In this document: positions 2,874 to 39,178 of the stretch, in pieces | How the letters are laid out: each line of letters starts with the position of its first letter | How positions within the stretch are numbered: position 1 is the first letter of the stretch | Assembly (NCBI RefSeq): GCF_013371465.1 | Contig: NZ_JABWDU010000003.1 | Location: 744,001 to 808,000, forward strand | DNA: 64,000 nt | Source: Ensifer oleiphilus | GTDB taxonomy: Bacteria; Pseudomonadota; Alphaproteobacteria; Rhizobiales; Rhizobiaceae | Direction: 5' to 3' | The notes under the pieces: generated by a model | Databases searched by the model: none | What the model saw: only the letters and a program-made list of their open reading frames with translations | Told to the model about the DNA's origin: nothing | Translations under genes and position numbers: made by a program

Positions 2874-2911
2874 TGGTAGTTCCCCTTTTTTGAGTGGTCA
2901 GGACCGGTGGC

Positions 2912-9265: not shown

Positions 9266-9288
9266 GTCCGATCCCCCATCGATTAAAT

Positions 9289-9320: not shown

Positions 9321-9419
9321 AGCAAACGACAAAGCTGCTTTATCCCTAATGATCGAAAATGAGATCGGCATAACAGTCGACAGATCCCGAAAAACGGGGT
9401 CGGAACCAGAGGGAAACAC

Positions 9420-10439: not shown

Positions 10440-10449
10440 CCGACGCTTA

Positions 10450-10477
10450 GCTCCTGACCGCAAGGTCGGTCAGGAGC
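10450..10477 (+). other. Intercistronic hairpin after tauA
   Basis: GCTCCTGACC (10450-10459) pairs perfectly with GGTCAGGAGC (10468-10477) across an 8-base loop, with no T tract. Such structures after binding-protein genes usually protect the upstream message or reduce read-through. Confidence 0.65.
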
Positions 10478-10521
10478 GCCGCCAACGCCACTCAACAGCC
10501 ATTTCTCGAAAGGCCTTTCCA

Positions 10522-11334: not shown

Positions 11335-12154
11335 GCGCGTGATGAAAGCCAAGCCGGTCAAGCCGGGCCGGATCTACGGCGCCCCCGGCGAAGGCATGAG
11401 CGGGCATATCAGCCTCCTGACCGCGCTGACGCTGATCGCGCTCTGGCTGCTGATCACCGAGATGCAATGGGTGAAGCCGCTGTTCCTGCCGTCGCCGCTT
11501 GCGGTCTGGGACAAATTCGTGATCGCGCTCACGGAGGGCGTCTCCAACTCGACGCTTGCCCAGCACACGCTCGCAAGCCTCGGTCGCGTGCTCGGCGCCT
11601 TCGCGCTGGCGCTCGTCACCGCCGTTCCGATCGGCATCCTCATGGGCGTCAACCGGGTGATGCGCGGGCTGTTCGATCCGATCATCGAATTCTACCGCCC
11701 ACTGCCGCCGCTCGCCTACCTGCCGCTGATCATCATCTGGCTCGGCATCGGTGAGTTCCCGAAGGTGTTCCTGATCTTCCTCGCGATCTTCGCGCCGATG
11801 GCGATTGCCGCACGGGCCGGTGTGCGCTCGGTCTCGATCGAACAGATACATGCGGCCTATGCGATGGGCGCCAGCCGCCGCCAGGTCATCAGCCACGTCA
11901 TTTTGAAGGCGGCGCTGCCCGAAATCTTCACCGGGATGCGCATCGGCATCGGCGTCGGCTGGACGACACTGGTTGCGGCGGAAATGGTCGCCGCCCACAG
12001 GGGCCTCGGCTTCATGGTCTTGAACGCCGCCGAATTCCTCGCCAGCGATACCGTGATCATGGGCATCATCGTCATCGGCGCCTTCGCCTTTGCCTTCGAT
12101 CTCCTGATCCGCCATCTCGAAAAGGCGCTCATTCCCTGGAAGGGCAAGGTGTGA
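11327..12154 (+). CDS. tauC: Taurine ABC transporter permease
   Basis: The inner-membrane permease of the taurine importer (275 residues, about six membrane segments) of the SsuC/TauC class. The cytoplasmic EAA loop is visible as [19 protein letters not shown]. The ATG at 11327 lies inside the end of tauB and is preceded by GGAG at seven bases, so it is the coupled start. A 9-bp-stem hairpin follows the gene and separates the transport genes from the catabolic genes tauXY-xsc. Confidence 0.92.
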
Positions 12155-12182
12155 CGATGCTCCCTTCGACTGGACGACAGCC

Positions 12183-12204
12183 GCCGAGCGGATAACCGCT
12201 CGGC
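12183..12204 (+). terminator. Hairpin between tauC and tauX
   Basis: GCCGAGCGG (12183-12191) pairs with CCGCTCGGC (12196-12204) around an ATAA loop. No T tract follows, so it is more likely an attenuating or message-stabilising structure than a full stop. Confidence 0.5.
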
Positions 12205-12310
12205 CCTAAAGGCACCATCACCAGACAGACAAAGCCGATCTGCCGGTTCATCCGGCCACGGCGAAGCCATGCCCGAATTCATCGCCTGCAACGCTTAGGA
12301 AACACAGACC

Positions 12311-12697
12311 ATGACTCCGAACGATCTATCCAACCTCTTCGACGCCTTCAACCGGCACGACATCGACGGCGTCATGTCCTTCTTCGCCAAGGATTGCACC
12401 TTCAACACGGTCGCCGGCAGCGAAGCGCACGGCACGCGCATCGAAGGCACTGACCAGATCGCCACCGCCTTCAGCGGCGTCTGGCAGACGATGCCGGATG
12501 CCCATTGGGCGCATCACGGTCACTTCGTCCATGGCGACCGAGCCGTATCGGAATGGACCTTTTCCGGCACCAACGCCGACGGCAGCCGCATCGAGGCCGA
12601 GGGCTGCGACCTCTTCACGCTGCGCGACGGCAAGATCGTGCGCAAGCAGGCCTTCCGCAAGAACCGGCCGCTGATTGCGGCTCCCTTCCGCTACTGA
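12311..12697 (+). CDS. tauX: Taurine dehydrogenase small subunit (TauX), NTF2/SnoaL-like
   Basis: A 128-residue protein with the cone-shaped NTF2/SnoaL fold pattern: an N-terminal helix (LSNLFDAFNRHDIDGVMSFF), the FNTVAGSEAHG strand turn, and strands such as AVSEWTFSGTNADG and DLFTLRDGKIVRK. In taurine degraders that deaminate taurine oxidatively, a small subunit of this kind is encoded directly before the flavoprotein TauY; the order here is the same, with a 25-base gap. Its own catalytic part is not known. A good ribosome site (TAGGAAACA) precedes the ATG. The name rests mainly on position. Confidence 0.75.
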   Translation: MTPNDLSNLFDAFNRHDIDGVMSFFAKDCTFNTVAGSEAHGTRIEGTDQIATAFSGVWQTMPDAHWAHHGHFVHGDRAVSEWTFSGTNADGSRIEAEGCDLFTLRDGKIVRKQAFRKNRPLIAAPFRY

Positions 12698-12722
12698 GCT
12701 CGAGCCAGGCCAGGAAACCGAT

Positions 12723-14120
12723 ATGGAACAGCTTGTCAGAACAGTCAGGCCGAGCAAGCCCTTCGACCCGGCATACGACCCCAACCGTGCCGCCAATCCC
12801 GGCGAGGGCAAGGACTATGCGCCGACCTACTGGATCGCAACGGCCGGCCCGCCGCCAGCCGACGACGGCCCCGTTTCGAGGGACATCGACGTCGACGTCG
12901 CGATCGTCGGCTCGGGCTACACCGGCCTCTCCTGCGCCATCCATCTGGCCAGGGAGCACGGCATCAAGGCGACGGTGCTCGAAGCCAACGGCGTCGCCTG
13001 GGGCTGCAGCACCCGCAACGGCGGCCAGGCGCAGATTTCTGCCGGCCGGCTCAAGCGCTCGCAGTGGATCGAACGCTGGGGCGTCGACGTCGCCAGGAAG
13101 CTGCACGTCGAGATCAGCGAGGCCTTCGACCTCTTCCGCGACCTGATCCGCTCGCCGGAGATCGCCTGCGACCCGCAGGACGGCGGCCATCTCTATATCG
13201 CCCATCGCAACAAGGTGATGCCGTCGCTGGAGGCCGAATCGCGTGTCCTTAACGACGTCTTCGGCTACCGCACGCGCATTCTCGGCCGCGACGAGATCCA
13301 TCGCGATTTCGTCCGCGACAACGAGGCGGTGGGGGCGCTTTACGAGCCCGATGGCATGGGCATCCATGCGGCCAGGCTCGCCTTCGGCTATCTCACATTG
13401 GCGCGCAAGCTCGGTGCCCGCGTCCACACATCGAGCCCGGTACTTTCCTGCGATCAGAAAGGCGGCGGCGTCCACCTGCGCACCCCCGGCGGCACCGTGC
13501 GGGCAAGAGCGGTGTGTTTCGCGACCGCCGGCTACACCTCGCCCGGTCTGCATTCGCTGACCAAGCACCGGCTGATGCCGATCCTCTCCAACTCGATCGT
13601 CACCCGCGTGCTCACCGACGACGAGCGGGCGGCGCTGAACTTCCGCACGCACATCCCGCTCACCGATACGCGCACGCTGCGCCACTATTACCGGCTGTTG
13701 CCGGACGGCCGCGTGCAGATCGGCAGCCGCAGCGCGATCACCGGCACGGACGCGGTCAACCCCAGGCATCTCGACCGGCTGCTCGAGGGCCTCTACCGCA
13801 AGTTCCCGGTGCTGACGGGCATCAAGGTCGACTACTCCTGGTGGGGCTGGGTCGACGTCAGCCACGACATGATGCCGCGCATCTTCCGCCCGGATCCGAA
13901 ACAGGCGCTGTTCTACGCCATGGGATACGGCGGCAATGGCGTCATGTATTCGGCCCAGGCCGGACGGCGCATGGCGCAGATGGTCGCCGGCAAGGGCGGC
14001 ACGCTCGACCTGCCGATCTTCACCTCTCCCCTTCCCAGCCACGGGCTGCTGACGCCGTTCCGGCGCATCGGCCAGTGGGGAATGTATCGCTGGTACTACC
14101 TAAAGGACGAAATCCTCTAG
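12723..14120 (+). CDS. tauY: Taurine dehydrogenase large subunit (TauY), FAD-dependent
   Basis: A DAO-type flavoprotein of 465 residues. The Rossmann FAD motif GSGYTGLS lies at about residues 63-70, preceded by VDVAIV and followed by TVLEANGVAWGCSTRNGGQ, where GCSTRNGGQ is typical of this amine-oxidising family. A C-terminal YGGNGVMYSAQAG closes the FAD site. Together with TauX it should oxidise taurine to sulfoacetaldehyde and ammonia, feeding electrons to the respiratory chain. The ATG at 12723 is preceded by AGGAAA at seven bases. It is followed after 43 bases by xsc, which uses its product. No taurine:pyruvate aminotransferase is encoded here, so this is probably the only deamination route in the cluster. 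Confidence 0.85.
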   Translation: MEQLVRTVRPSKPFDPAYDPNRAANPGEGKDYAPTYWIATAGPPPADDGPVSRDIDVDVAIVGSGYTGLSCAIHLAREHGIKATVLEANGVAWGCSTRNGGQAQISAGRLKRSQWIERWGVDVARKLHVEISEAFDLFRDLIRSPEIACDPQDGGHLYIAHRNKVMPSLEAESRVLNDVFGYRTRILGRDEIHRDFVRDNEAVGALYEPDGMGIHAARLAFGYLTLARKLGARVHTSSPVLSCDQKGGGVHLRTPGGTVRARAVCFATAGYTSPGLHSLTKHRLMPILSNSIVTRVLTDDERAALNFRTHIPLTDTRTLRHYYRLLPDGRVQIGSRSAITGTDAVNPRHLDRLLEGLYRKFPVLTGIKVDYSWWGWVDVSHDMMPRIFRPDPKQALFYAMGYGGNGVMYSAQAGRRMAQMVAGKGGTLDLPIFTSPLPSHGLLTPFRRIGQWGMYRWYYLKDEIL

Positions 14121-14163
14121 CCGCTCGGTCGGCCCCAAAACCCAACATGAAAGGAAACAGACA

Positions 14164-15939
14164 ATGAAAATGACGACCGAAGAGGCTTTCATCAAAGTCC
14201 TCCAGATGCACGGCATCGAACACGCCTTCGGCATCATCGGCTCGGCGATGATGCCGGTCTCCGACCTCTTCCCGAAGGCGGGCATCACCTTCTGGGATTG
14301 CGCCCATGAAACCAACGCGGCGCTGATTGCCGACGGCTACACGCGCGTCACCGGCAACATGTCGATGGCGATCGCCCAGAACGGCCCCGGCGTTACCGGT
14401 TTCGTCACCGCGGTCAAGACCGCCTACTGGAACCACACGCCGATGCTTCTGGTCACGCCGCAGGCGGCCAACAAGACGATCGGCCAGGGCGGCTTCCAGG
14501 AAGTCGACCAGATGGCGCTGTTCGAGGAAATGGTCTGCTACCAGGAAGAGGTGCGCGACGCGAGCCGCGTTCCCGAAGTCCTCAACCGGGTGATCGAGAA
14601 GGCCTGGCGCGGCTGCGCTCCGGCGCAGATCAACATCCCGCGCGATTACTGGACGCAGGTGATCGACGTCGAATTGCCGAGCATCGTCCGGCTGGAGCGT
14701 CCCTCCGGCGGCAAACAGGCGATTTCCGAGGCTGCGAAACTTCTGTCGGAAGCGAAATTCCCTGTCATTCTCAACGGTGCCGGCGTTGTTATCGGCGGCG
14801 CGATCGCCGAATCCATCGCGCTGGCCGAACGGCTGGACGCGCCCGTCTGCTGTGGCTATCAGCACAACGACGCATTCCCGGGCGGCCACCGTCTCGCCGC
14901 CGGCCCGCTCGGTTACAACGGCTCCAAGGCGGCGATGGAACTGATCGCCAAGGCCGACGTGGTGCTGGCGCTCGGCACCCGGCTCAATCCGTTCTCGACT
15001 CTTCCGGGCTACGGCATCGACTACTGGCCGAAGAATGCAGCAATCATTCAGGTCGACATCAACTCCGACCGCATCGGCCTGACCAAGAAGGTGACCGTAG
15101 GCATCTGCGGCGACGCCAAGCAGGTCGCAAGCCAGATCCTCGAGCAGCTTTCGCCTTCAGCCGGCGACAGCGGCCGCGAGGAGCGCAAGGCGCTGATCCA
15201 CACGACCCGCTCTGCCTGGCTGCAGCAGCTGTCATCGATGGACCATGAGGACGACGATCCGGGCACCGAATGGAATGCCTCGGCACGTCGCCGGGAGAGC
15301 GACCGCATGTCGCCGCGCCAGGCCTGGCGGGCGATCCAGGCGGCCCTGCCCAAGGACGCCATCATCTCGACCGACATCGGCAACAACTGCGCCATCGGCA
15401 ACGCCTATCCGAGCTTCGAGCAGGGGCGGAAGTACCTGGCACCCGGCATGTTCGGTCCCTGCGGTTACGGCTTCCCGTCGATCGTCGGCGCCAAGATCGG
15501 TTGCCCCGACATGCCTGTGGTCGGCTTTGCCGGTGATGGCGCCTTCGGCATCTCGATGAACGAGATGACCTCCATCGGCCGCGCCGGCTGGCCGCCGATC
15601 ACCATGGTGATCTTCCGCAATTTCCAGTGGGGAGCCGAGAAGCGCAACACGACGCTCTGGTACGACAACAACTTCGTCGGCACCGAGCTCAACACCAACC
15701 TCAGCTACGCAAAGGTAGCCGACGGCTGCGGCCTCAAGGGCGTGACGGTCGACACGCAAGCTGACCTGACGGCTGCCTTGCAGCAGGCGCTGCAGGACCA
15801 GGCGAAGGGCGTGACCACCTTCGTCGAGGTCATCCTCAACCAGGAGCTCGGCGAGCCCTTCCGCCGCGACGCCATGAAGAAGCCGGTGCAGGTCGCCGGC
15901 ATCGAGCGCTCGGACATGCGGCCGCAGCAGCACGTCTGA
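14164..15939 (+). CDS. xsc: Sulfoacetaldehyde acetyltransferase
   Basis: A thiamine-diphosphate enzyme (591 residues, the usual Xsc length) that converts sulfoacetaldehyde and phosphate to acetyl phosphate and sulfite. The activating glutamate lies in CAHETNAALIADGYTR (about residue 49). The FGPCGYGFPSIVGAK stretch comes before the ThDP-magnesium motif, which begins GDGAFGISMNEM at about residue 457. The sequence is close to the Xsc family rather than to acetolactate synthase, and the neighbours (tauXY upstream, TauZ and pta downstream) fit. AAAGGAAACA gives a clear ribosome site. A 13-bp-stem hairpin follows the stop. Confidence 0.95.
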   Translation: MKMTTEEAFIKVLQMHGIEHAFGIIGSAMMPVSDLFPKAGITFWDCAHETNAALIADGYTRVTGNMSMAIAQNGPGVTGFVTAVKTAYWNHTPMLLVTPQAANKTIGQGGFQEVDQMALFEEMVCYQEEVRDASRVPEVLNRVIEKAWRGCAPAQINIPRDYWTQVIDVELPSIVRLERPSGGKQAISEAAKLLSEAKFPVILNGAGVVIGGAIAESIALAERLDAPVCCGYQHNDAFPGGHRLAAGPLGYNGSKAAMELIAKADVVLALGTRLNPFSTLPGYGIDYWPKNAAIIQVDINSDRIGLTKKVTVGICGDAKQVASQILEQLSPSAGDSGREERKALIHTTRSAWLQQLSSMDHEDDDPGTEWNASARRRESDRMSPRQAWRAIQAALPKDAIISTDIGNNCAIGNAYPSFEQGRKYLAPGMFGPCGYGFPSIVGAKIGCPDMPVVGFAGDGAFGISMNEMTSIGRAGWPPITMVIFRNFQWGAEKRNTTLWYDNNFVGTELNTNLSYAKVADGCGLKGVTVDTQADLTAALQQALQDQAKGVTTFVEVILNQELGEPFRRDAMKKPVQVAGIERSDMRPQQHV

Positions 15940-15947
15940 CATCCATC

Positions 15948-15975
15948 CCATGCCCGGCGGACCCGCCGGGCATGG
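15948..15975 (+). other. Intercistronic hairpin between xsc and tauZ
   Basis: CCATGCCCGGCGG (15948-15960) and CCGCCGGGCATGG (15963-15975) are perfect 13-base arms with only two bases between them, so the real loop is about four bases. No T tract follows. It probably trims expression of the exporter and pta relative to xsc. Confidence 0.6.
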
Positions 15976-16011
15976 CCCTCCGATTTGGCATTCTCAGACG
16001 GGAAATTTCAA

Positions 16012-17049
16012 ATGAGTGCGGTATCCGAAACGACGCGGCGGTTTCAATGGCTGCCTGCGGCCCTGTCGACCTATGGTCCCGGCCTCCTGGTAACGGCGGC
16101 CGTCGCCATGGCCGCTCAGTTCCTATCGGATCATTATGGCGCGCCCGCCATGTTGATGGCGCTGCTGCTCGGCATCGCATTCCACTTTCTCTCCGAGGAA
16201 GGCCGTTGCGTCGCCGGCATCGAGCTATCGGCCAAGATGATCCTCAGGATCGGCGTCGCCTTGCTCGGCATGCGCATCAGCGTCGATCTTCTGATCGGGC
16301 TCGGCAGCGGCACCATTCTCCTCTTGGTCTCCGCGATCGCGGCCACGATCCTGTTCGGTCTGGCGGCTGCCAAGATCCTCGGCAGGGGCTGGAGGCTGGC
16401 GCTTCTGACCAGCGGCGCCGTGGCGATTTGCGGCGCGTCGGCTGCCATGGCAATTGCCGCCGTCCTGCCGAAGAACGAGTTCTCCGAGCGCAACCTGATC
16501 TTCACCGTGCTGTCTGTGACGGTTCTGAGCACGCTTGCGATGATCGGCTATCCCATCCTTGCCCAGTCGCTGGGGCTTGATGCCCGCGCCACCGGCATCT
16601 TCTTCGGCGGCACGATCCATGACGTCGCGCAGGTCGTCGGGGCCGGTTTCTCGGTGTCGCCAGAGGCCGGCGAGACGGCGACGCTGGTCAAGCTCATCCG
16701 CGTCACGATGCTGGCACCCGTCGTCCTCATCTTCTCGATCGCGCTTCGAAACGTTCCCCAGGAAGGGGTCGAGGCCGGCAAGCGTCCGCCCTTGCTGCCC
16801 GGCTTCGTCGTCGCCTTCCTGATGCTTGCCGCCACCAACTCCGTCGGGATGGTGCCCGCTGCCGTCGCCGAGCTCGGCATGGAGGCATCGCGCTGGTCGC
16901 TCTTGGCGGGCATCGTCGCCGTCGGCATGAAGACGTCGCTGCGTCGTGTGCTCGATGTCGGCGGCGACGCAGTTGCGCTCATCGTCGCCGAAACCATCTT
17001 CCTCGGCGTCTTCATCGTCGCCGGCATGCATTATCTGGGACATCTCTGA
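16012..17049 (+). CDS. YeiH-family putative sulfite/sulfate exporter (TauZ-like)
   Basis: A polytopic inner-membrane protein (345 residues, about ten hydrophobic segments) of the YeiH family (Pfam Cons_hypoth698). Features include GVALLGMRISVDLLI, the conserved SGAVAICGASAAMAIAAVLP loop and FFGGTIHDVAQVVGAGFSVS. Located between xsc and pta, it matches the TauZ-type exporter proposed to expel the sulfite or sulfate left after taurine degradation. The start at 16012 was chosen over one 27 bases upstream, which lies close to the preceding hairpin. Its stop overlaps the pta start (TGATG). Confidence 0.8.
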   Translation: MSAVSETTRRFQWLPAALSTYGPGLLVTAAVAMAAQFLSDHYGAPAMLMALLLGIAFHFLSEEGRCVAGIELSAKMILRIGVALLGMRISVDLLIGLGSGTILLLVSAIAATILFGLAAAKILGRGWRLALLTSGAVAICGASAAMAIAAVLPKNEFSERNLIFTVLSVTVLSTLAMIGYPILAQSLGLDARATGIFFGGTIHDVAQVVGAGFSVSPEAGETATLVKLIRVTMLAPVVLIFSIALRNVPQEGVEAGKRPPLLPGFVVAFLMLAATNSVGMVPAAVAELGMEASRWSLLAGIVAVGMKTSLRRVLDVGGDAVALIVAETIFLGVFIVAGMHYLGHL

Positions 17050-18047
17050 TGAAACCGCTCGACAAGATCATCGAAACCGCAAGAAATGCGCCGCGCCAAA
17101 TCGTGCTTGCCGAAGGTGGGGATGCGCGTGTGGTCGCAGCCGCTCTGCGCGCTCGCGCCGAAGGCATTGCCCAGATCACGCTTATCGGACGGCACGACAT
17201 TATCGCTGAGCGCCTGCGCGATCACGGCGGCGACGAACATGCCTTCCGGATCGAAGACCCGGCAACGTCGCCACTGACGGAGCGGTTCGCCGAACGGTAC
17301 CACGAACTGCGCCAGGGCAAGGGCGTCGACCGAGAGGCCGCCGAAAAGGCCGTGCGCGAAGATCTGGTCTTTGCCGCCATGATGGTCCGCGAGGACGAGG
17401 CGGACGGCACCATCGGCGGGGCGGTCGCGACCACGGCCGATACGGTGCGCACAGCGCTGCAGGTCATCGGCCGGACGCCGGATGCCGGGCTCGTCTCCAG
17501 CTTCTTCCTGATGATGCTGTGTCAGCCGCACCACGCGAAGAAGGGCGCATTCGTCTTTTCCGACTGCGGCCTCGTCGTCGATCCGGATGCTAGCGGTCTC
17601 GCCGATATCGCCCGCATGTCGGCGCGATCCTATCAGGCACTGCTCGGGGACCGCGCCAAGGTGGCGATGCTCTCCTTCTCGACCAATGGCAGTGCCGCCC
17701 ATGATCGTGTCAGCAAGGTGGTCGAGGCAACGAACATCGCCCGCGCCTCCGACCCTGACCTGCTGATCGACGGGGAACTGCAGTTCGACAGCGCCTTCGT
17801 CGAGGCCGTCTCTTCCTCCAAGGCGCCCAATTCGGCGCTACACGGCCAGGCAAACGTCTTCGTCTTTCCCAATCTCGATGCCGCCAACATCGGCTACAAA
17901 ATCGCCCAGCGCATCGGCGGCGCGACCGCCATCGGCCCGGTGCTTCAGGGGCTCGCCAAGCCCGCCAATGATCTATCGCGCGGCTGCACGGCAGACGACG
18001 TCTTCCATATGATCGCCGTCACCGTGGTCCAGGCTGCATCGCGATAG
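17049..18047 (+). CDS. pta: Phosphate acetyltransferase
   Basis: A short-form Pta (332 residues) consisting only of the catalytic PTA/PTB domain, unlike the roughly 700-residue E. coli enzyme. It transfers the acetyl group of acetyl phosphate to CoA. Visible motifs are IVLAEGGDARVVAAALRA at the N-terminus, the glycine-rich DEADGTIGGAVATTADTV and the C-terminal FPNLDAANIGYKI and ISRGCTADDV-like end. Short Pta enzymes of this sort accompany xsc in many sulfonate degraders and complete the route from taurine to acetyl-CoA. It overlaps the exporter stop by one base and ends the taurine gene series. Confidence 0.92.
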   Translation: MKPLDKIIETARNAPRQIVLAEGGDARVVAAALRARAEGIAQITLIGRHDIIAERLRDHGGDEHAFRIEDPATSPLTERFAERYHELRQGKGVDREAAEKAVREDLVFAAMMVREDEADGTIGGAVATTADTVRTALQVIGRTPDAGLVSSFFLMMLCQPHHAKKGAFVFSDCGLVVDPDASGLADIARMSARSYQALLGDRAKVAMLSFSTNGSAAHDRVSKVVEATNIARASDPDLLIDGELQFDSAFVEAVSSSKAPNSALHGQANVFVFPNLDAANIGYKIAQRIGGATAIGPVLQGLAKPANDLSRGCTADDVFHMIAVTVVQAASR

Positions 18048-30943: not shown

Positions 30944-31882
30944 CTAACGCTCATCGACGGGGCGTGCTTCCGTCAGCCATTCAACGAGATCCGCAACCTT
31001 CCGTCGCGTTTCGGTGCGGGCCGGATAGAGGGCGTAGTAGCCATAGCCGCTGTCGATGATGCGCGGGAACGGCGTGACCAGCTCGCCGCCTTGCAGGTCC
31101 TGCTTTGCAAGATAGAGGTCGCCCATCGTGACGCCGTAACCGCTTGCGGCAGCCGTCATCGCAAAATCCTGCGTGTCGAAGATCTGGTTGCGGGCGGCGC
31201 GGAAGTCGTAGGCCCCTTCCGCCTGCAGCCACAATGTCCAGTCGCTCTGGCGCGGATTGGAATGCAACAAGACGCAGGCCGACAGGTTTTCGAGCGTCGC
31301 CGGATCGCCGAGCGTTTCGGCAACGGCCGGCGAGCACATCGGCGTCAACTTTTCCGGAAGCAGCAGGAAAACGTCCATGCCCGGCCAGTGGCCGTTGCCG
31401 TAGGTGATCAGGAGATCGATGTCGCCGACGGTGAAGGTCGGGCGGGCAAACCACGCCGTGTCGATCGTAATGTTCAGATCTTCATGACGGCTTTGCAGTT
31501 CCGGAAGCCGCGGCAGCAGCCACCGCCGCGCGAATGTCGGCGGCATTCGGATCGTGAGGGATCGGCTCTTCGTTCGCGTCGCCTCGAAGGAATTGCGCAG
31601 CGAAACGAGCAATCCATTGACGATCGGCATGATCGCCGCACCCTGCTCTGTGATCACCACCTTGCGGGTGTGGCGCTCGAACAGACTGCAGCCGAAATAA
31701 TGCTCCAGCTGCTGGATCTGGCGGCTGATCGCACTCTGGCTGAGGTTGAGTTCCGTGGCTGCGGCCGTGAAGCTGCCGGTTTCCGCAACGATCGAGAATG
31801 TCTGCAGCGTCTGCAAGGGCGGCAAGCGATTCTGCTCGAAAACCGGCTTCAAAGTGTTCCTCCGCGATGGCAACCGGGGCAT
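30944..31882 (-). CDS. LysR-family transcriptional regulator (GcvA-like)
   Basis: A LysR-type regulator (312 residues). The winged helix-turn-helix lies at about residues 20-80 (PLQTLQTFSIVAETGSFTAA, then TELNLSQSAISRQIQQLE), followed by a periplasmic-binding-like effector domain (residues 105-305) with a GcvA-like LRNSF...PPTFARRWLLPRL opening. It follows the lyase gene after 43 bases on the same strand, so it is probably the last gene of the operon starting at 39178. A T-N11-A box upstream of that operon is a plausible target, giving an autoregulated circuit. Confidence 0.88.
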   Translation of the reverse strand: MPRLPSRRNTLKPVFEQNRLPPLQTLQTFSIVAETGSFTAAATELNLSQSAISRQIQQLEHYFGCSLFERHTRKVVITEQGAAIMPIVNGLLVSLRNSFEATRTKSRSLTIRMPPTFARRWLLPRLPELQSRHEDLNITIDTAWFARPTFTVGDIDLLITYGNGHWPGMDVFLLLPEKLTPMCSPAVAETLGDPATLENLSACVLLHSNPRQSDWTLWLQAEGAYDFRAARNQIFDTQDFAMTAAASGYGVTMGDLYLAKQDLQGGELVTPFPRIIDSGYGYYALYPARTETRRKVADLVEWLTEARPVDER

Positions 31883-31925
31883 TTAAACCGTCGTCATCGC
31901 GTTGGTAAAGCGCAGACTGGCGCGA

Positions 31926-33314
31926 TCAGGCAAGAAGCGAACGGAGCTCGGCGATGGCGCGTCTGACCTGTTGCGGAGCGGTCCCGCCCGGATGGTTGCG
32001 GCTGCCAACGGAGCCCTCGACGCTCAGCACCTCATAAACATCCTCACCGAGGGCCGGCGCGAAGGTCTGCATCTCGGCAAGCGGCATATCAGAGAGCGTC
32101 GCCAGCCCCTTTTCTCGCGCCGCGCCGACGATCGCCGCGACAGAGTGATGGGCGTCGCGGAAAGGCAAGCCGGCGCGCACCAGATAGTCCGCCAGATCCG
32201 TCGCCGTGGAATAGCCCTGTTCGGCAGCGGCCAGCATGTTCGCGGCACGCACCTTGATCGTCGGCAGCATCTGAGCGGTCACGGTGACGGCTCCGCGCAC
32301 ATTCTCCAGCGTATCGGTGAGTGGAGGCTTGGATTCCTGCTGGTCCTTGTTGAAGGCCAGCGGCTGGGCCTTCATCAGCGCTGCCGATGTCGCCAGATTG
32401 CCGATGATGCGCGCCGCCTTGCCGCGCACGAGTTCGGCCAGATCGGGATTGCGCTTCTGCGGCATGATCGAGGAACCGGTGCAGAACTGGTCGCCGACCT
32501 CGATGAAATCGAACATCGGCGTGCACCACAGGATGACTTCCTCGGAAAAGCGCGAGAGATGCCCCATGATGATGGCCCCGGCCGCACAGATATCGACGAC
32601 GTAATCGCGATCGGATACGGCGTCTAACGAATTGCGGAAGGCGCGGGAAAAACCGAGTTCGCCAGCGCTATAGGCCGGATCGATGGGATAGCCGGTGCCG
32701 GCAAGTGCAGCCGCGCCGAGCGGCGAGACATTCAGCCGCTCGCGCGCCTGCCTTACGCGTTCAAGGTCACGCAGGAACATCTCGGCATACGCCATTAAAT
32801 GATGGCCGAAAGTCACGGGCTGGGCGACCTGCAGATGGGTGAAGCCCGGCATGATCGTCTCTGCGTGGCGATCGGCGAGGTCGACGAAAGCCAGCACCAG
32901 GGACGTCAGCTCAGACGCGAGCGCATCCAGTTCGGCGCGCGCGTAAAGGCGGATGTCCGTTGCCACCTGGTCGTTGCGCGAACGCGCCGTGTGCAGCTTC
33001 TTGCCAGCGTCGCCGACAAGGGCGGTCAGGCGGCTCTCGACGTTCATATGAACGTCCTCGAGCTCCTTCTTCCACACAAACGCGCCGGAGCGCATTTCGT
33101 CGGCGATCTGATCGAGGCCCACCTGGATGTGGTTGTTCTCCTCCTTGGTCAGGATGCCGGCTCGCGCCAGCATGTGCGCGTGGACCTTGGAGCCGGCGAC
33201 ATCATAAAGCGCGATGCGCTTGTCCTGGTCGAGGCACTCGTGGAAATCGCGGAAGTCCGTGGATACTGCTTCCTTAAAGAGCGGCGACCAGGTCGTCTCA
33301 GCCATCGTAGTCAT
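31926..33314 (-). CDS. Argininosuccinate-lyase-family C-N lyase (ArgH-like)
   Basis: A fumarase/aspartase superfamily enzyme of 462 residues, the usual ArgH length. Signature GSSIMPQKRNPD, the HTARSRNDQ loop and the NVSPLGAAALAGTGYPID stretch are present. Positions usually conserved in biosynthetic ArgH differ: THLQRAQP reads THLQVAQP, QEDKEPLFDT reads QESKPPLTDT, and the C-terminal GGTAP region is preceded by SRNHP. It lies in an amino-acid import and catabolic operon, not with arginine biosynthesis genes. It may therefore eliminate fumarate from another N-substituted aspartate, as iminodisuccinate and EDDS lyases of this family do. Argininosuccinate remains possible. ATG 33314 has AGAGGACGAG upstream. 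Confidence 0.85.
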   Translation of the reverse strand: MTTMAETTWSPLFKEAVSTDFRDFHECLDQDKRIALYDVAGSKVHAHMLARAGILTKEENNHIQVGLDQIADEMRSGAFVWKKELEDVHMNVESRLTALVGDAGKKLHTARSRNDQVATDIRLYARAELDALASELTSLVLAFVDLADRHAETIMPGFTHLQVAQPVTFGHHLMAYAEMFLRDLERVRQARERLNVSPLGAAALAGTGYPIDPAYSAGELGFSRAFRNSLDAVSDRDYVVDICAAGAIIMGHLSRFSEEVILWCTPMFDFIEVGDQFCTGSSIMPQKRNPDLAELVRGKAARIIGNLATSAALMKAQPLAFNKDQQESKPPLTDTLENVRGAVTVTAQMLPTIKVRAANMLAAAEQGYSTATDLADYLVRAGLPFRDAHHSVAAIVGAAREKGLATLSDMPLAEMQTFAPALGEDVYEVLSVEGSVGSRNHPGGTAPQQVRRAIAELRSLLA

Positions 33315-33370
33315 CTCGTCCTCTCAGCATTCTTGCGGTTTGTTGTTACGCGGCTTTGGCTGATCCAGCG

Positions 33371-34732
33371 TCAATGCAGCCACTCCAAGAGCTCGCGTGC
33401 ATCGGAGCAGGTGTCGAGCGTGAGGACGCGATCGCGCAGGCCATTAGCCTTCTCCCGCCCCAACGCGGAGCCAGCCAATTCGTCGAATTTTCCGATCAGG
33501 CGGTCGTCGCTCAGCGGGTTCGCGGGGCTTCCAAGCGGGAAATCGACCGTCGTCTTCACATGTCGGCCGTCGCTCGTGGCGAGCGCGACTGCCGGTTCCG
33601 CCTCATCGGACATGGCCGGATCGATCCGCACGTCCATGCGTTGGAGCCATCGGTCAATGCTCAGATCGCGCCAGGCGCGTTCCTCAAGTTCCGCGAGCGA
33701 CACCTTGCCGTACTGAAGCCGTGCGGCAATCGCATAGGGAAGGCTCATCTGTGCCTGCGCGCGCGATGTCAGCACCTTGCCGCCGCACATGCCAAACTGA
33801 AAGCCGCTCATGTCGACCGTGATCGCTGCGATGTCTTGGCTCGCGAGCTCCTGGTCGCCCAGCAGCTTGTCGATCGCATCGATTGCCGAGTGGGTGCCGC
33901 GGCAGGTGGCATGCGGTTTGATCGAGCAACGCTCGATGCGCCAGTTTTCGCCGAAGCCGTGGACCAGCATCGCCGGATCCCCCTCGCCCCGACAAAAGGC
34001 CTGAAAGAAACTTCCCCAGGCGCTCTTATCGAAAACATCTCCCGGCCCGACAAAGCCGCTGGCGGCGAGGTGCGCGGCGAGAAATCCGCCTTCCGCGGCG
34101 CGACCGGCATGAAGCTTTTTGGCAGGACTGCCGTCGTGGACGAACGCCCACGTGCCGCCGGAAAAGGAACAGGCTAGGCCGAGCGCCGAGGCGATGCGCT
34201 GCGCGTCAAAGCCGATCAAGGTTCCGACGGCTGCCGCCGCGCCGAAGGCGCCGCAGGTGCCGGTCGAATGCCATCCGAGCCCGTTATGCGTCTCGTAGCC
34301 GCCGGCGGCCTCCAGCACGCGCCGGCCGACCTCGTATCCGATCAGCACGCTCTTCAGAAATTCCTTGCCATGAACAGGGCGCGTCACCTCGCCGAGGGCG
34401 GCGACAACCGCCGGCAGCACGACTGCACCGGAGTGGTCGCATCCGCCGCTGTCATCGAGTTCGAGGGCGTGGGCTGAAACGCCGTTGACGAGCGCGGCGG
34501 TGCGCGCATCGGCAAAAAGCGGAGTTCCCCAGATAAGCGAAGAACCGTTCGCTGCGCTCACGCCCGATGCAGCAAGGACCATGCGCGTCTCGGCCGACGC
34601 TGAGCCGGCGACAGCGACGCCGAAGGTGTCTAGCACATGCTGCTTCGCCTTGCGGATGGTTGCTTGCGGAAAGTCGTCGAACGCCGTGGCTGCGACCTTG
34701 AGCGCCAGCGACTGAAGTACGGTGTCAGCCAT
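33371..34732 (-). CDS. MmgE/PrpD-family protein (possible epimerase or dehydratase)
   Basis: A cytoplasmic MmgE/PrpD protein (453 residues). The helical N-terminal domain has VLDTFGVAVAGSAS, the conserved ALVNGVSAHALELDDSGGCDHSG motif split over the active site, and GWHSTGTCGAFGAAAAVG; PKP-like KPHATCRGTHSAIDA follows in the lid. Family members include 2-methylcitrate dehydratase, cis-aconitate decarboxylase and the iminodisuccinate epimerase of Agrobacterium. Direct linkage to an ArgH-like C-N lyase makes the epimerase model attractive. The ATG at 34732 overlaps the upstream deacetylase-like gene by 8 bases; a longer start 27 bases upstream is less likely. Confidence 0.85.
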   Translation of the reverse strand: MADTVLQSLALKVAATAFDDFPQATIRKAKQHVLDTFGVAVAGSASAETRMVLAASGVSAANGSSLIWGTPLFADARTAALVNGVSAHALELDDSGGCDHSGAVVLPAVVAALGEVTRPVHGKEFLKSVLIGYEVGRRVLEAAGGYETHNGLGWHSTGTCGAFGAAAAVGTLIGFDAQRIASALGLACSFSGGTWAFVHDGSPAKKLHAGRAAEGGFLAAHLAASGFVGPGDVFDKSAWGSFFQAFCRGEGDPAMLVHGFGENWRIERCSIKPHATCRGTHSAIDAIDKLLGDQELASQDIAAITVDMSGFQFGMCGGKVLTSRAQAQMSLPYAIAARLQYGKVSLAELEERAWRDLSIDRWLQRMDVRIDPAMSDEAEPAVALATSDGRHVKTTVDFPLGSPANPLSDDRLIGKFDELAGSALGREKANGLRDRVLTLDTCSDARELLEWLH

Positions 34733-35618
34733 GGGATTGCTGCTCCTGCAGGTAGGCATCGAAGACGTGGAGGGGATGGGTCAGCGGCGGCGCGACACCA
34801 TTCTTGCGGTGCCAGTCCGCAATCATCGCGCCGGTGGCGATCCAGACGTCGTCGAAGCCGCGGATATGGGCCAACAGGTCTTCGACGATGGAGATCCGTC
34901 CTGGTGTTCCGGTCCATTCCGGCCGGAGTTGCAGCACGTAGCAAAGGCCGAAGCGGCGATAGGCGTCGAACTCCGCGATCCAGTTGTGAAGAACACCGTC
35001 GTAAGACGGGATGCGGCTCTGCCCTTTCGGAAATGCCGGGGTGAAATTGAACTGGAAGTAGGGCCGATCCTCCAGCTCAACATGAACAGGTATCTCGACC
35101 AGGCGGGAGGGGTGCAGATAGGGAACGTCGTCGCCGTTGAGGGACGCCGACCAACCGTACCCTGCCTCCAGCAACGATTGATCGAAGCCTTGCGGCCAGT
35201 TCCCGGCCGGGAGACGGAAACCGGTGGCTGCTTTCCCCGACAGCTCGCCCAGTGTCTCCCGTGACCGCTTCAGCAGATCCACCGACTGCGACGCCAGCAT
35301 GCGATCGTGGCGCTCGAAGGCCCAGCCATGACTTTCCAGATCGTGGCCGGCGCCGGCGACCGACTTCAGCAAACCGGGATGCTCTTCGGCCACCTGCCCC
35401 GGCGCAAACCAGCTGGCGGCGATATCGAAAGATGCGAAGGTCCGGCACAGGCGCTCCACGCCGCGGGTTGCGCCATACTTCCAGACGGAAAAACTCTTGC
35501 TGCGCTGGAGAAGGTCCGGGGCAGCAGTAGCCGCGTCCATCCCGTCGTCAAACAGCACCGAGATCAGCACCGCGCATCGCTTGCCCTCGGGCCACGTCGT
35601 TGTCGCCTGTTCGTTCAT
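34725..35618 (-). CDS. CE4/polysaccharide-deacetylase-like protein with an altered metal site
   Basis: A NodB-homology (CE4) protein of 297 residues. Motif 1 is FDDG (residues 23-26) and a motif-3-like RLPAGNW follows. Motif 2, normally HGxxHE or HxxxH, reads HGWAFER (from His97), so the second metal histidine is replaced by Phe101; a histidine three residues later (His104) might compensate. CE4-fold enzymes that cut linear or cyclic amides, such as PuuE allantoinase, lack normal metal sites, so an amidohydrolase role is possible. The ATG overlaps the stop of the paralogous gene upstream (ATGA), so the two proteins are made together and may form a heteromer. Confidence 0.8.
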   Translation of the reverse strand: MNEQATTTWPEGKRCAVLISVLFDDGMDAATAAPDLLQRSKSFSVWKYGATRGVERLCRTFASFDIAASWFAPGQVAEEHPGLLKSVAGAGHDLESHGWAFERHDRMLASQSVDLLKRSRETLGELSGKAATGFRLPAGNWPQGFDQSLLEAGYGWSASLNGDDVPYLHPSRLVEIPVHVELEDRPYFQFNFTPAFPKGQSRIPSYDGVLHNWIAEFDAYRRFGLCYVLQLRPEWTGTPGRISIVEDLLAHIRGFDDVWIATGAMIADWHRKNGVAPPLTHPLHVFDAYLQEQQSHG

Positions 35619-36505
35619 GCCAGCGTCCTTCCGAGGTCCTTCGAATGCCGGTCGATCCACCAGCGGGCGACATCGCCGCAGGGAGTGGTCCAGACCGCGT
35701 CGCCATGCGCTTTGATCGCTTTGAAAAGGCCCTCGAGAATCGAGAGGCGCCCCGGCTTGGCGCAAACCTTGGGGTGGAGGATCGTGGTCCAGCACAGGCC
35801 TTCGCGGTGGTATCCCTCGAACTCCGCGCGCCAGTTCTGCTCGACGGTCCGGTAGTCGGAGATCCGGTCGAGACCAACCGGGAAATCAGGCTCCTCCGTG
35901 TAGGCCAAGGCGGTATAGTCATCGATGTCCCAGCGACCGGGAATTTCGACGAGGCCGCGCTCGGATGTTCTGCTCGGATGGAAATAGGGGCGATCGTCGC
36001 CGCGCATCGAGCTCGAATAGAGGACGCCGAAGGCGCCCAGCAGATCCGCAGTCTCGGTGCTCCAGTCGCCGGACGGGGTACGGAAGCCGATCGGCGTCAC
36101 GCCGAGCCGCTCCTGGAAGATGGCACGCGAGCGCTCCATGATGGCGAGCTGCTGCTCACGGCTCAGATCGATAAAGACCTCGTGACGGTGGCCATGATAG
36201 GCGACTTCATGGCCTTCGCGAACGATCCGTTCGCAATGAGCGCCCCAATGCAACACCACCCAGGTGGGAATGAAGAAGGTCGCCTTGAGATCGTAGACCG
36301 ACAGCAGATCAAGCAAGCGCGGCAGAGCCTTCCATGGGCCATAGGCGCCCTGCGTGAAATAGCGGGGATTGGAAAGCAGCGAGCCATCGAGCATCGCATC
36401 GCCCGTCGGGCCGTCGACGTCGAAGGCAAGCGCGACCGCGGATTGTTTTCCTGGCGGCCACAGCGGGGCTACACGATCGGCAGCAGGGATAGTTTCGGTC
36501 AGCAT
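35615..36505 (-). CDS. CE4/polysaccharide-deacetylase-like protein with an intact metal motif
   Basis: A NodB-homology protein of 296 residues. Motif 1 reads FDVDG (28-32), motif 2 HGHRHE (104-109) with both metal histidines in H-x3-H spacing, and motif 3 RTPSGDW. No signal peptide is visible, so it acts in the cytoplasm, which argues against cell-wall or exopolysaccharide deacetylation and for hydrolysis of a small amide. It shares the general plan of the next gene (TWP/PPGK opening, FHPSR or LHPSRLVEIP strand, QNW or HNW AEF region), so the two are old paralogues. A 12-bp-stem hairpin lies between its start and the binding-protein gene upstream. Confidence 0.85.
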   Translation of the reverse strand: MLTETIPAADRVAPLWPPGKQSAVALAFDVDGPTGDAMLDGSLLSNPRYFTQGAYGPWKALPRLLDLLSVYDLKATFFIPTWVVLHWGAHCERIVREGHEVAYHGHRHEVFIDLSREQQLAIMERSRAIFQERLGVTPIGFRTPSGDWSTETADLLGAFGVLYSSSMRGDDRPYFHPSRTSERGLVEIPGRWDIDDYTALAYTEEPDFPVGLDRISDYRTVEQNWRAEFEGYHREGLCWTTILHPKVCAKPGRLSILEGLFKAIKAHGDAVWTTPCGDVARWWIDRHSKDLGRTLA

Positions 36506-36524
36506 GGTCTTTGTCCGGTTTTCT

Positions 36525-36552
36525 CCACCCCCGGCGGGAGCGCCGGGGGTGG
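36525..36552. terminator. Strong hairpin after the amino-acid binding-protein gene
   Basis: CCACCCCCGGCG (36525-36536) and CGCCGGGGGTGG (36541-36552) are perfect 12-base arms around a 4-base loop. TTTTT follows on the plus strand only, so for the minus-strand operon it is more likely a message-stabilising or attenuating hairpin than a terminator. It separates the transporter genes from the enzyme genes. Confidence 0.65.
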
Positions 36553-36670
36553 TTTTTGCAAGACAAAGCTCTCCCGTTCCGGCACTGAGGCCGGTGAAAA
36601 GGAAAGAGCTTTGGGGGGTTACCGCCCGCCTCTCTCGGAGAGATCAGGTGCGCGAGCGGAAGACGACAGC

Positions 36671-37498
36671 TTACTTGACGCCGTTGATCACGGCCTTCGG
36701 CACGGCATTGTGCACAAGGCCCCACTTCGTCAGCAGTTCGTTATAGGTGCCGTCCTTGATCAAGTCGTCGAGAGCACCGGCGACAGCGTCGCGCAGTGCC
36801 GAATTGTCTTTCTTGAAGCCCATACCGAACGTGTCGTTGCTAAGCAGCGGATCGCCGACCAGCGTGAACGTGTCCGGCTCGACGCGCATCTGGTAGGCGA
36901 TGGTTTCGATGCCTTGCACAACCGCGTCATAGCGACCCTGTTTCATGCCGAGGCGGGCGGCGTTGGAATCGGCCGTGCCTTCGAACTTGATCGCCGGCTT
37001 ACCCTTGCCCACGCAATTGGCCTCGCTCCAGCCGGTGACGTTTTCGCCGAAGCTGGTGCTGCGGCTGCCGGCAACCGTCTTGCCGCAAAGGTCCTCGGGC
37101 GACTTGTACTGTTCGGCGCTGGCTTTGGTCGTGAACAGGATCGGGCCGCTCGTCAGGTAGTCGACGAAGTCCATGCTTTCCTGGCGTTTGACGTTGTCGC
37201 TCATGCCGGAGATGATCACGTCGCCGCGGCCCGTCTGGAGCCCGCTCTGCAATTCCTGGAAGGCGGAGGTGACGAACAGCGGGTTCAGCTTGAGCTTGGC
37301 CGCAATCGCCGTCGCCAGATCGACATCGAAACCGTCAAGCGTGCCCTTCTCCGGGTTGACGAATTCCATCGGCGGATAGATCGGATTGGTCAGGATGCGA
37401 AGCTCGCCGTCATTGACCAGGTTGAGCTTGGTTTCGGCCGACGCGACACCGGCCGAAAGAAGCGCCAGCGCGGACACGGCCACTCTCAGAAATTTCAT
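36671..37498 (-). CDS. Amino-acid ABC transporter substrate-binding protein (family 3)
   Basis: A periplasmic binding protein of 275 residues for a polar amino acid or amino-acid derivative. A signal peptide spans residues 1-21 (SAGVASA/E). The ligand-site landmarks are YPPMEF, LDGFDVDLATAIA and the GDVIISGMSDNVKR region, where the arginine normally grips the alpha-carboxylate. There are two cysteines (DLCGKT and EANCVGK) that could form a disulfide. It follows the permease and ATPase genes and precedes the two CE4-like genes. Its ligand should be the operon substrate, probably an N-substituted or acylated acidic amino acid if the enzyme model is right. Confidence 0.9.
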   Translation of the reverse strand: MKFLRVAVSALALLSAGVASAETKLNLVNDGELRILTNPIYPPMEFVNPEKGTLDGFDVDLATAIAAKLKLNPLFVTSAFQELQSGLQTGRGDVIISGMSDNVKRQESMDFVDYLTSGPILFTTKASAEQYKSPEDLCGKTVAGSRSTSFGENVTGWSEANCVGKGKPAIKFEGTADSNAARLGMKQGRYDAVVQGIETIAYQMRVEPDTFTLVGDPLLSNDTFGMGFKKDNSALRDAVAGALDDLIKDGTYNELLTKWGLVHNAVPKAVINGVK

Positions 37499-37529
37499 GT
37501 CATTCTCCTCTTGATGTTATTTTTCGTTT

Positions 37530-38291
37530 TCAAAGCACCGCAGAGATGAAGCTCTTCACTCTGGGATTTGTGGGATTCTCCAGGATCTCCGCGGGCGTTC
37601 CGGTTTCGATGATCCGGCCTGCGTCCATGAACACCACCCGGTCCGCCACCTCGCGGCAGAAGCCGAGCTCGTGGGTAACGACGATCATCGTCGTGCCGGT
37701 GGCGGCCAGCTCCTTCATAACGCCGAGCACCTCGCCGACAAGTTCGGGATCGAGCGCCGACGTCGGCTCGTCGAACAGCATCGCCTTCGGTTTCATCGCG
37801 AGCGCCCGGGCAATTGCGACACGCTGCTGCTGCCCGCCGGACAGTTCGCCCGGATAGGCGTCCGCCTTGTGGGCCAGGCCGACGCGCTTCAACAGGGCAC
37901 GCGCCTCCTCGGCGCATTGCTGCTTCGGGCGTCTCTGCACGCCGACCGGCCCTTCGATGATGTTTTCGAGCACGGTGCGGTGCGGAAAGAGATGAAAGCG
38001 CTGGAAGACCATGCCAACGGACTGGCGTTGCCGCGCGACCTCGCGGTCGGACAGCGGATAGAGGTGGTTTCCGTCACGACGGTAGCCGGCAATCTCGCCA
38101 TCGACGCTCACATAGCCACCTTCGATGCTTTCGAGCTGATTGATGCAGCGCAGGAACGTGCTCTTTCCGGAGCCGGACGGACCGATGATGCAGACGACTT
38201 CGCCCTTGCGAATGCTGAAATCGATGTCCTGGAGCACATGGAAGGTGCCGAAGTATTTCTGAAGGCCATGGGCCACGATAAGCGCGTCCAT
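37530..38291 (-). CDS. Amino-acid ABC transporter ATP-binding protein
   Basis: The ATPase of the importer (253 residues): Walker [10 protein letters not shown] (37-45), Q-loop [14 protein letters not shown], signature [15 protein letters not shown], Walker [18 protein letters not shown] and switch IVVTHELGF. It belongs to the HisP/GlnQ class for polar amino acids. The ATG overlaps the permease stop by one base (TGATG). The same frame stays open far upstream over the permease, but only this start gives a normal N-terminus. The gap to the binding-protein gene is 31 bases. Confidence 0.92.
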
Positions 38292-39178
38292 CAGACGGCC
38301 TCCTCGACGGTGGTCTGCGGCGCGGGAGCGGTTTCGTTCCGACCGGAGGCGCCCCATCCCTTGGAGAAATAGCGCTCGATATACATCTGCGCGATGCTGA
38401 GGACCGTGACCACGGCCATGTACCACATGGCGGCAACGATCAGCAGTTCGATGACGCGCGAATTGACGTAGTAGATGTCTTCCACGCTGCGCAGCACCTC
38501 GGAGTACTGGATGACGCTGGCAAGCGAGGTCAGCTTGACCATGCCGATCGTCTCGTTGCCGATCGGCGGCACGATGACACGCATCGCCTGTGGCAGGACG
38601 ATCTTCAGCGTAGAACGCAGCTTGGTCATGCCGATCGACAGGGCCGCCTCTGTCTGCCCCTTGTCGATGGAGAGAATGCCGGCGCGCACGACCTCCGCGG
38701 TATAGGCGCCCTGCTGGATGCCGAGGCCGAGGAAGGCCGCGACGAAAGGCGTCATCACGTCGACGGTGCGCAGCGAAAACAGGCCGGGAATACCGATGGT
38801 CGGGAAAATCAGCGCCAGATTGAACCACAGGAGCAATTGCAGCAGCGCCGGCGTGCCGCGAAACAGCCAGATGTAGCCGACGGAAACACTTCTCAGAACC
38901 GGATTGTCGGACATGCGCATGACTGCGGCGAGCACGCCGAGCAGAATGCCAAGCGCCATGGCGCAGAAGGTCATGATGATGGTGTTGACGACACCAGCCA
39001 TAACCGCCTTCGAAAACAGGTTTTCTCCGACATAGCTCCAGGCGATATCGCCGAGCCAAAAGGCTCTCACAAGCAGGATCAGCATCGTGATGAATACGAG
39101 GGCCAGTATCTTCGTGCCGATCTTGCGCCGCGGCACGACGACAAACTGGCCCGGATCGGCAAGTCTGGTATCGCTCAT
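38291..39178 (-). CDS. Amino-acid ABC transporter permease (single-gene, HisMQ class)
   Basis: A membrane permease of 295 residues, longer than usual for the class because of a 30-residue cytoplasmic N-terminus ([19 protein letters not shown]) and a 20-residue tail ([18 protein letters not shown]). The EAA loop is [20 protein letters not shown] followed by [14 protein letters not shown]. Only one permease gene is present, so it should act as a homodimer. It is the first gene of the eight-gene operon, with GGGGAAC before the ATG, and a candidate LysR box lies about 100 bases upstream. Confidence 0.92.

Follow-up and report, generated by a model that had tools for sequence, protein, structure and literature searches.

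An Ensifer oleiphilus operon joining an amino-acid importer, two CE4 proteins, an MmgE/PrpD protein and an ArgH-derived lyase, and its possible role in N-succino amine breakdown

Eight genes at positions 30944 to 39178 of a 64,000-nt stretch of Ensifer oleiphilus DNA (NZ_JABWDU010000003.1; genome of 6.76 Mb), hereafter the window, encode an amino-acid ATP-binding cassette (ABC) importer, two CE4-type proteins (CE4A and CE4B), an MmgE/PrpD-family protein (PrpD), a lyase derived from argininosuccinate lyase (ArgH) and a LysR-type regulator. The gene set is conserved among distant bacteria, its lyase is changed at positions conserved in ArgH, CE4B has lost its metal ligands, and the PrpD model has a fold close to that of iminodisuccinate (IDS) epimerase. 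From these features we infer the substrate, every reaction and the order of the steps. Our preferred reading, held with a probability of roughly 0.45, is that the operon imports and degrades an N-succino amine of argininosuccinate-like type.

The ABC importer would bring in an amine carrying an N-(1,2-dicarboxyethyl), i.e., N-succino, group, and CE4A, with CE4B as a non-catalytic partner, would hydrolyse an amide or lactam form of it. PrpD would invert the succino carbon, so that all stereoisomers become usable, and the lyase would eliminate fumarate and free the amine. This amine would probably be a guanidino compound, and the substrate would resemble argininosuccinate, perhaps as cyclic anhydrides or epimers, and not a synthetic chelator. 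Argininosuccinate forms cyclic anhydrides with a ring that would suit a PuuE-like hydrolase, and their aspartyl carbon could epimerise. The initial annotation of this DNA had proposed the breakdown of an N-substituted aspartate (amide-linked, opine-like or chelator-like), by comparison with the degradation of IDS and ethylenediaminedisuccinate (EDDS). The general idea receives indirect support from the data below, whereas the assignment to IDS or EDDS is not established.

Conservation and distribution of the gene set

Related loci (labelled L; genomes, G) were fetched with the window PrpD as query, and the best 80 of 101 were compared, 59 of which had about 10 kb on both sides (full-flank loci). 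With presence counted anywhere in the locus, the permease, ATPase, binding protein, CE4A-type gene and PrpD occurred together in all 59 full-flank loci, an ArgH-type lyase in 57 and CE4B in 50. When short contigs were included, this five-gene core was found in 73 of the 80 loci and the lyase in 72. Since the importer, the CE4A-type gene and PrpD co-occur in 59/59 full-flank loci, the gene set is no chance neighbourhood. It is real and conserved, and it is not described as a unit in the literature searched, where we found no paper joining MmgE and polysaccharide deacetylase with argininosuccinate lyase, nor one joining them with an amino acid ABC transporter.

The cassette was found in Rhizobiales, Burkholderia, Paraburkholderia, Pseudomonas, Marinomonas and metagenome-assembled genomes of Chloroflexota. 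The closest named PrpD relatives belong to records of Ensifer adhaerens (93% identity) and Sinorhizobium (91%). In a sample of 398 genomes of Pseudomonadota, the PrpD subfamily (>500 bits) was present in 7, with a gap in the scores from 576 to 268 bits. Within the window's genus, 7 of 16 genomes had the protein, with at least 82% identity in four. The cassette is an accessory trait.

The lyase, the PrpD protein and the CE4 pair

On the argH model TIGR00838 (cut-off, 279.5 bits) the window lyase scored 580.8 bits, and a second, housekeeping ArgH encoded elsewhere in the genome scored 608.9 bits. The window protein gave 190 bits with EDDS lyase versus 444 with Thermus ArgH. In a tree of 50 rows, with several long branches flagged by the program, the cassette lyases fell into two types. 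Type 1, that of the window, groups with six beta- and gammaproteobacterial biosynthetic ArgHs (support 98/98; inner order unsettled), and type 2, found in Burkholderia, Pseudomonas and Sinorhizobium meliloti, groups with the Mycobacterium ArgH (100/99). A single clade of both types was rejected in a tree that contains long branches (approximately unbiased test, P = 0.0019), as was an identification of the window protein as EDDS lyase, given the bit scores and its position outside the EDDS branch. The initial annotation had leaned towards a lyase of EDDS or IDS type and had named a firm place inside biosynthetic ArgH, together with complementation of an argH mutant, as what would speak against it; the tree gave the first half of this. 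These groupings suggest that ArgH joined the cassette separately on two occasions, each time from an ArgH branch.

We collected 27 distinct type-1 and 46 distinct type-2 lyase sequences, and compared residues (delta-2 crystallin numbering) in 10 type-1 lyases, 20 type-2 lyases and 22 housekeeping ArgHs. The fumarate-site residues T161, H162, S283, K289, N291 and E296 were kept in every lyase of both types (10/10 and 20/20); according to PMC2779060, H162 contacts the fumarate moiety. All type-1 lyases were changed at R14, S29, Y323, D330, E332 and F335 (10/10), carrying L, C, S or C, P and T at R14, S29, D330, E332 and F335, respectively, and all type-2 lyases at D33 and Q328 (20/20). The housekeeping ArgHs kept R14, S29, D33, Q328, D330, E332 and F335 in 22/22 cases and Y323 in 20/22; the Thermus ArgH has Leu at F335. 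The suspicion that this lyase is not a plain ArgH is therefore borne out by a retained fumarate site together with the changes at ArgH-conserved positions. A double capture of ArgH, each lineage losing different conserved residues, fits a shared new substrate still ending in fumarate; relaxed constraint may also have produced the changes.

Two observations concern S. meliloti. The genome of strain 4H41 (G020) carries two type-2 cassette copies (L159 and L165), each with one CE4 gene. The genes argH2 and SMb21095-21097 match the type-2 cassette in gene order and may correspond to it. They were down in a tolC mutant, and the authors tie the fall of nitrogen-compound transport genes to NtrC (PMC2912261). 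A further ArgH-like lyase lineage was seen in two genomes (L161 6470-7984 and L162 7076-8590; 315 and 301 bits on TIGR00838), adjoining an ABC ATPase gene and genes reading like sugar-type transport and kinase.

The AlphaFold2 model of PrpD had a mean predicted local distance difference test (pLDDT) value of 92.8. When it was compared with known structures by Foldseek, IDS epimerase (2hp0) gave the best template modeling (TM) score, 0.89/0.90, with a root mean square deviation (rmsd) of 2.2 Å and 26% identity. Cis-aconitate decarboxylases came first by E-value (TM 0.88/0.89, rmsd 2.9 Å), and 2-methylcitrate dehydratases were farther (TM at most 0.83). In the sequence comparison IDS epimerase was first (122.8 bits). 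The subfamily has an invariant motif, ELDDSGGCDH (Cys98 and His100), followed by N150, GWH at 153-155, K205, H208, K272, C277, R278 and H281. The counterpart of the catalytic His99 of IDS epimerase is His100, invariant in 16/16 sequences. Of the claim that PrpD sets the stereochemistry, the fold (by TM score and rmsd) and the catalytic His stand, whereas Tyr145 and Arg97 of the epimerase are not kept. Within the family to which the window organism belongs, relatives of IDS epimerase itself gave 9 matches in 8 of 199 genomes (best identity, 40%), and the surroundings of two of these nine contained no cassette gene except PrpD-like and LysR-like ones.

The CE4 counts are of CE4-type reading frames in the loci, near copies included. 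In CE4A-type proteins the Asp, the HxxxH metal ligands, the Arg motif and the late His were kept in 79/79 relatives, the window CE4A showing the motifs FDVDG and HGHRH. Both metal His were present in 0/69 CE4B sequences, the window copy included, and because these ligands are missing CE4B probably acts as a partner of CE4A without catalytic activity. A single intact CE4 (32 to 37% identity) was present in eleven loci of S. meliloti type, and L034 had no CE4. The closest PDB structures to CE4A were 3rxz, HpPgdA and PuuE allantoinase; leaving 3rxz aside, we take the other two to be amide or cyclic-amide hydrolases. The view of the CE4 pair as amide-opening enzymes thus agrees with the intact motifs of CE4A but not with the degenerate CE4B.

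Substrate and competing explanations

Guanidino-degrading genes lie near several cassettes. In Paracoccus seriniphilus an arginase (287.9 bits) and an ornithine cyclodeaminase (571 bits), both over the cut-offs, flank a lyase-less cassette. In two loci that are 99% alike (L070 and L085), a same-strand gene for an arginase-family ureohydrolase begins 12 bp beyond the CE4 gene; the closest solved relatives of this enzyme are 3-guanidinopropionase and guanidinobutyrase. In L180 a relative with 62 to 63% identity and the cassette LysR gene are 1.3 kb apart and separated by a second LysR gene, and in L079 one with 74% identity lies 3.7 kb away. The search of 12 further loci gave a ureohydrolase in L153 and L178, the one in L153 being a more distant relative 1.3 kb from the cassette with one gene between; these two loci supplied ureohydrolase queries, and L180 came from the genome search. 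The search for ureohydrolase relatives found none in the window. We regard this neighbourhood as a lead and not as proof, the statistics being thin. Because ArgH was apparently recruited twice and guanidino-degrading genes lie nearby, an argininosuccinate-type substrate is favoured, being at least as likely as a chelator. The initial annotation had set an argininosuccinate route aside; the same lines of evidence, on thin statistics, make a substrate of that type a leading option, and its exclusion is not warranted.

Other partners of the PrpD module bear on the bond that is broken. Depending on the lineage, the module occurs with either of two ArgH-derived lyases, with an EDDS-type lyase or with an amine oxidase. 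In three Chloroflexota loci (L035, L036 and L040) a DAO-type flavin adenine dinucleotide (FAD) oxidase gene follows PrpD; no lyase was found in these loci, two of which (L035 and L036) end upstream at the contig end. DAO-type oxidases attack C-N, not C-S, bonds. Because some cassettes carry a lyase and others an amine oxidase, elimination and amine oxidation would both point to a carbon-nitrogen bond. In L156 a distant PrpD (38%) adjoins a lyase (9236-10771) that, among PDB entries, matches EDDS lyase best (223 bits versus 203 for ArgH) and whose place with the EDDS branch has a support of 91/55; this locus also has genes reading like a different ABC importer. The loci survey and the tree thus place PrpD relatives together with lyases of three lineages, of which one is EDDS-lyase-like, in keeping with the kinship to EDDS lyase from which the initial annotation had started. 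The L156 lyase scored 310.6 bits on TIGR00838, above the cut-off, so annotation with this argH equivalog model can mislead, as it accepts an EDDS-lyase-like protein.

Of 21 genomes, the 16 with a cassette lyase have at least two ArgH-family matches above the cut-off, and the 5 without one (G007, G008, G009, G012 and G017) have exactly one, the housekeeping enzyme. Since a single ArgH is present there, it could serve the lyase-less cassettes, which would need an argininosuccinate-like intermediate. Two lyase-less cassettes (L033 3886-5106 and L062 4316-5485) have, divergent from the importer, a gene for a HisC-type aminotransferase-like protein with a Tat-like signal.

The importer gave broad matches. 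The ATPase reached about 313 bits with the TcyN and GlnQ models, below their cut-offs, and the permease matched best, also below the cut-off, a cystine-permease model. For the binding protein the best NCBIfam model was a Lys/Arg/Orn substrate-binding protein (131.5 bits, below the cut-off), and Foldseek with its AlphaFold2 model (pLDDT, 88.8) placed Gln- and Arg-binding proteins nearest. Contig C9 of the window's own genome (L215 6971-9558) holds another importer whose binding protein is of this subfamily (231 bits on the cassette profile), together with GntR-type regulator-like and sugar-kinase-like genes; no PrpD, CE4 or lyase occurred there among reading frames of at least 210 residues.

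Several observations weigh against the degradation of an argininosuccinate-like compound by this operon. The binding protein has Gly196 in 23/23 cassette copies, at a site where an Asp presumably holds the amine in known amino-acid binders; in the window's own genome that Asp occurs in 12 of 29 binding-protein rows and is absent from 17, the rows including the window protein and duplicate pairs. Gly196 argues weakly against a free alpha-amine as in argininosuccinate, and would suit a compound lacking one, for instance a chelator-type secondary amine or a guanidino acid with an N-succino group. Argininosuccinate itself as the substrate would make the loss of ArgH-conserved residues hard to explain. 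PrpD has Asn in place of Tyr145, the second proposed base of IDS epimerase, and a deletion at the nearby Arg97. PMC7347537 describes H99 and Y145 as the proposed catalytic bases of IDS epimerase, and human cis-aconitate decarboxylase as likewise without an equivalent of Tyr145. Because PrpD lacks this Tyr and Arg, epimerase chemistry is likely for it only by analogy. Ureohydrolases in the flanks of the 80 loci numbered 3 versus 0.62 expected (P = 0.025), or 2 by lineage, and the background rate (0.64 per Mb) came from 22 genomes, of which three had been picked because they have such a neighbour. Lastly, a GNAT acetyltransferase gene lies beside the cassette LysR gene, outside the operon, in 11 of the 92 related loci, namely ten of Burkholderia type (L041, L043, L046, L048, L051, L054, L061, L080, L151 and L179, the GNAT being also annotated in L179) and L083 of Ensifer (57% identity). 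By that search the window has no such gene. As the neighbour in L041, reading frame 2484-3185 was discarded, since it has no Pfam match and overlies that GNAT gene in a wrong frame. The N-succino reading leaves this acetyltransferase unexplained; it resembles the acetylation step for S-(2-succino)cysteine (2SC) and is the main point for an S-succino substrate.

In that S-succino alternative the operon would degrade 2SC or a derivative; CE4A would stand in for the deacetylase, and PrpD would set the stereochemistry. We take YxeQ to be an MmgE/PrpD protein. According to PMC9706529, the 2SC pathway is an acetylate-cleave-deacetylate scheme, and the yxe locus comprises an ABC importer, an acetyltransferase, a deacetylase, YxeQ (of unknown function) and, in some genomes, a lyase (2SL). 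The best scores of the window ATPase and permease, which are with cystine-transporter models, agree with this route, as does the GNAT that occurs beside LysR in Burkholderia-type loci and independently in L083. We nevertheless hold it distinctly improbable: the eight genes of the window operon include neither an acetyltransferase nor an M20-type deacetylase by Pfam, the GNAT stands outside the operon and in few loci, the replacement of the lyase by an amine oxidase misfits a thioether, and the lyases derive from ArgH. A somewhat stronger candidate, though still a doubtful one, is an aminopolycarboxylate pathway, in line with the initial annotation, for a natural or synthetic chelator-type N-substituted aspartate (IDS, EDDS or a compound like toxin A, aspergillomarasmine or lycomarasmine), of which CE4A would open an amide or lactam form. 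It would accommodate the fold of PrpD nearest IDS epimerase, the EDDS-lyase-like partner in L156, the oxidase replacement, which fits a secondary amine, and Gly196 of the binding protein. Also in its favour, EDDS lyase makes toxin A, the precursor of aspergillomarasmines and lycomarasmine (PMC10792612). Both types of cassette lyase, however, branch from ArgH and not from EDDS lyase, and the guanidino-hydrolysing neighbours do not suit such a substrate.

Two further accounts lie close to the preferred reading. In one, argininosuccinate or a guanidino-acid analogue would cyclise to acylguanidine lactams and lose its stereochemistry; the operon would salvage such damaged compounds, CE4A with the dead CE4B reopening the ring, PrpD restoring the configuration and the lyase, taken at least twice from ArgH, freeing fumarate and a guanidino compound, an account that we consider rather unlikely in this specific form. 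The literature found on argininosuccinic acid anhydride is human or rat biomarker work. Plain scavenging of argininosuccinate, with the lyase as a functional second ArgH and with PrpD and the CE4 proteins acting on side products only, appears quite improbable. The score far above the ArgH cut-off, the grouping with ArgHs and an importer nearest Lys/Arg/Orn and Gln/Arg binders would agree with it, but residues kept in all 22 housekeeping ArgHs are changed in the 10 type-1 and 20 type-2 lyases, PrpD and CE4A occur together in every full-flank locus, and a model that takes an EDDS-lyase-like protein gives scores that are no proof of function. We see very little room for a different pathway altogether, for example with PrpD as a dehydratase or decarboxylase or with the lyase working in the synthetic direction. 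PrpD-family proteins do have several chemistries, and in fold the cis-aconitate decarboxylases come almost as near as IDS epimerase; the importer, lyase and LysR nevertheless form a catabolic layout, and the pairing matches IDS degradation.

Operon layout and relation to known systems

The initial annotation had listed eight genes on one strand, and their order and families were confirmed by the coordinates and Pfam (Table 1). Neighbouring genes overlap or are separated by short gaps, with overlaps of 1 nt (permease/ATPase), 4 nt (CE4A/CE4B) and 8 nt (CE4B/PrpD). The single longer gap (165 nt) separates the binding protein from CE4A and has a stable fold (z = -3.45; 0/200 shuffles equal) with a hairpin whose GC-rich stem is of 12 bp. 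Because its T-run is on the + strand only, this does not look like a canonical terminator for the operon, and looks more like a processing or stability hairpin. A sigma-70 scan upstream of the permease, which is uninformative in this bacterial group, gave no promoter. Elsewhere in the window (7793-18047), a taurine/sulfonate-like cluster was read by eye (MocR-type regulator, TauA/TauB-like importer, FAD oxidoreductase, Xsc-like thiamine enzyme and Pta).

Table 1. Genes and intergenic feature of the operon, in gene order
Feature	Position in window	Strand	Basis
Amino-acid ABC permease (PAAT type), first gene	38291..39178	-	PF00528, 66 bits
ABC ATPase, ATG start at 38291	37530..38291	-	PF00005 (match range 37530-38303)
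Periplasmic binding protein, substrate-binding protein family 3	36671..37498	-	PF00497, 110 bits
165-nt gap with GC-rich hairpin at 36525-36552	36506..36670	-	Fold statistics
CE4A, intact CE4/PuuE-like hydrolase	35615..36505	-	PF01522, 68 bits
CE4B, degenerate CE4 paralogue	34725..35618	-	PF01522, 56 bits
MmgE/PrpD-family protein, proposed epimerase	33371..34732	-	PF03972 and PF19305
ArgH-derived lyase, type 1	31926..33314	-	TIGR00838, 580.8 bits; tree; changed residues
LysR-type (GcvA-like) regulator	30944..31882	-	PF00126 and PF03466; GcvA model 236 bits, below cut-off

In plant-associated and other bacteria, genes that carry the annotations argininosuccinate lyase, polysaccharide deacetylase and MmgE/PrpD are here read as one testable pathway, which gives enzymologists a short list of candidate substrates, each an amine or thiol joined to succinate. 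The cassette provides IDS-type epimerases with a natural setting and is an example of a catalytic CE4 protein paired with a degenerate one. It also warns that lyases which probably are not ArgH pass the argH model.

Among known systems, IDS degradation in Agrobacterium tumefaciens BY6 shares with the window operon a protein of MmgE/PrpD fold and, presumably, its partnership with a fumarate-releasing lyase. It differs in that the window operon has CE4 proteins and an importer; the comparison was made with its epimerase. The EDDS lyase of Chelativorans sp. BNC1 belongs to the same superfamily as the window lyase, which is far nearer ArgH by bits. With ArgH the window lyase has the fold, the fumarate site and the tree position in common; six conserved positions are changed in type-1 lyases, and the genome already holds a second ArgH. 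Within the CE4/PuuE allantoinase family, CE4A carries the complete CE4 motifs, CE4B being degenerate, yet its scores fall far short of the NCBIfam cut-offs for the families that it matched. The yxe/scm cluster of Bacillus subtilis likewise combines an ABC importer, a hydrolase, an extra protein and, in some genomes, a fumarate lyase, whereas the window operon is without acetyltransferase or monooxygenase, has CE4 proteins instead of the deacetylase and draws its lyase from ArgH. Finally, the catabolism of opines (octopine and nopaline) resembles the cassette in the PAAT importer, in the arginase and cyclodeaminase found next door in Paracoccus, and in the amine oxidase of Chloroflexota, and the cassette differs from it in having a lyase instead of an oxidase in most Pseudomonadota loci and in its PrpD and CE4 proteins.

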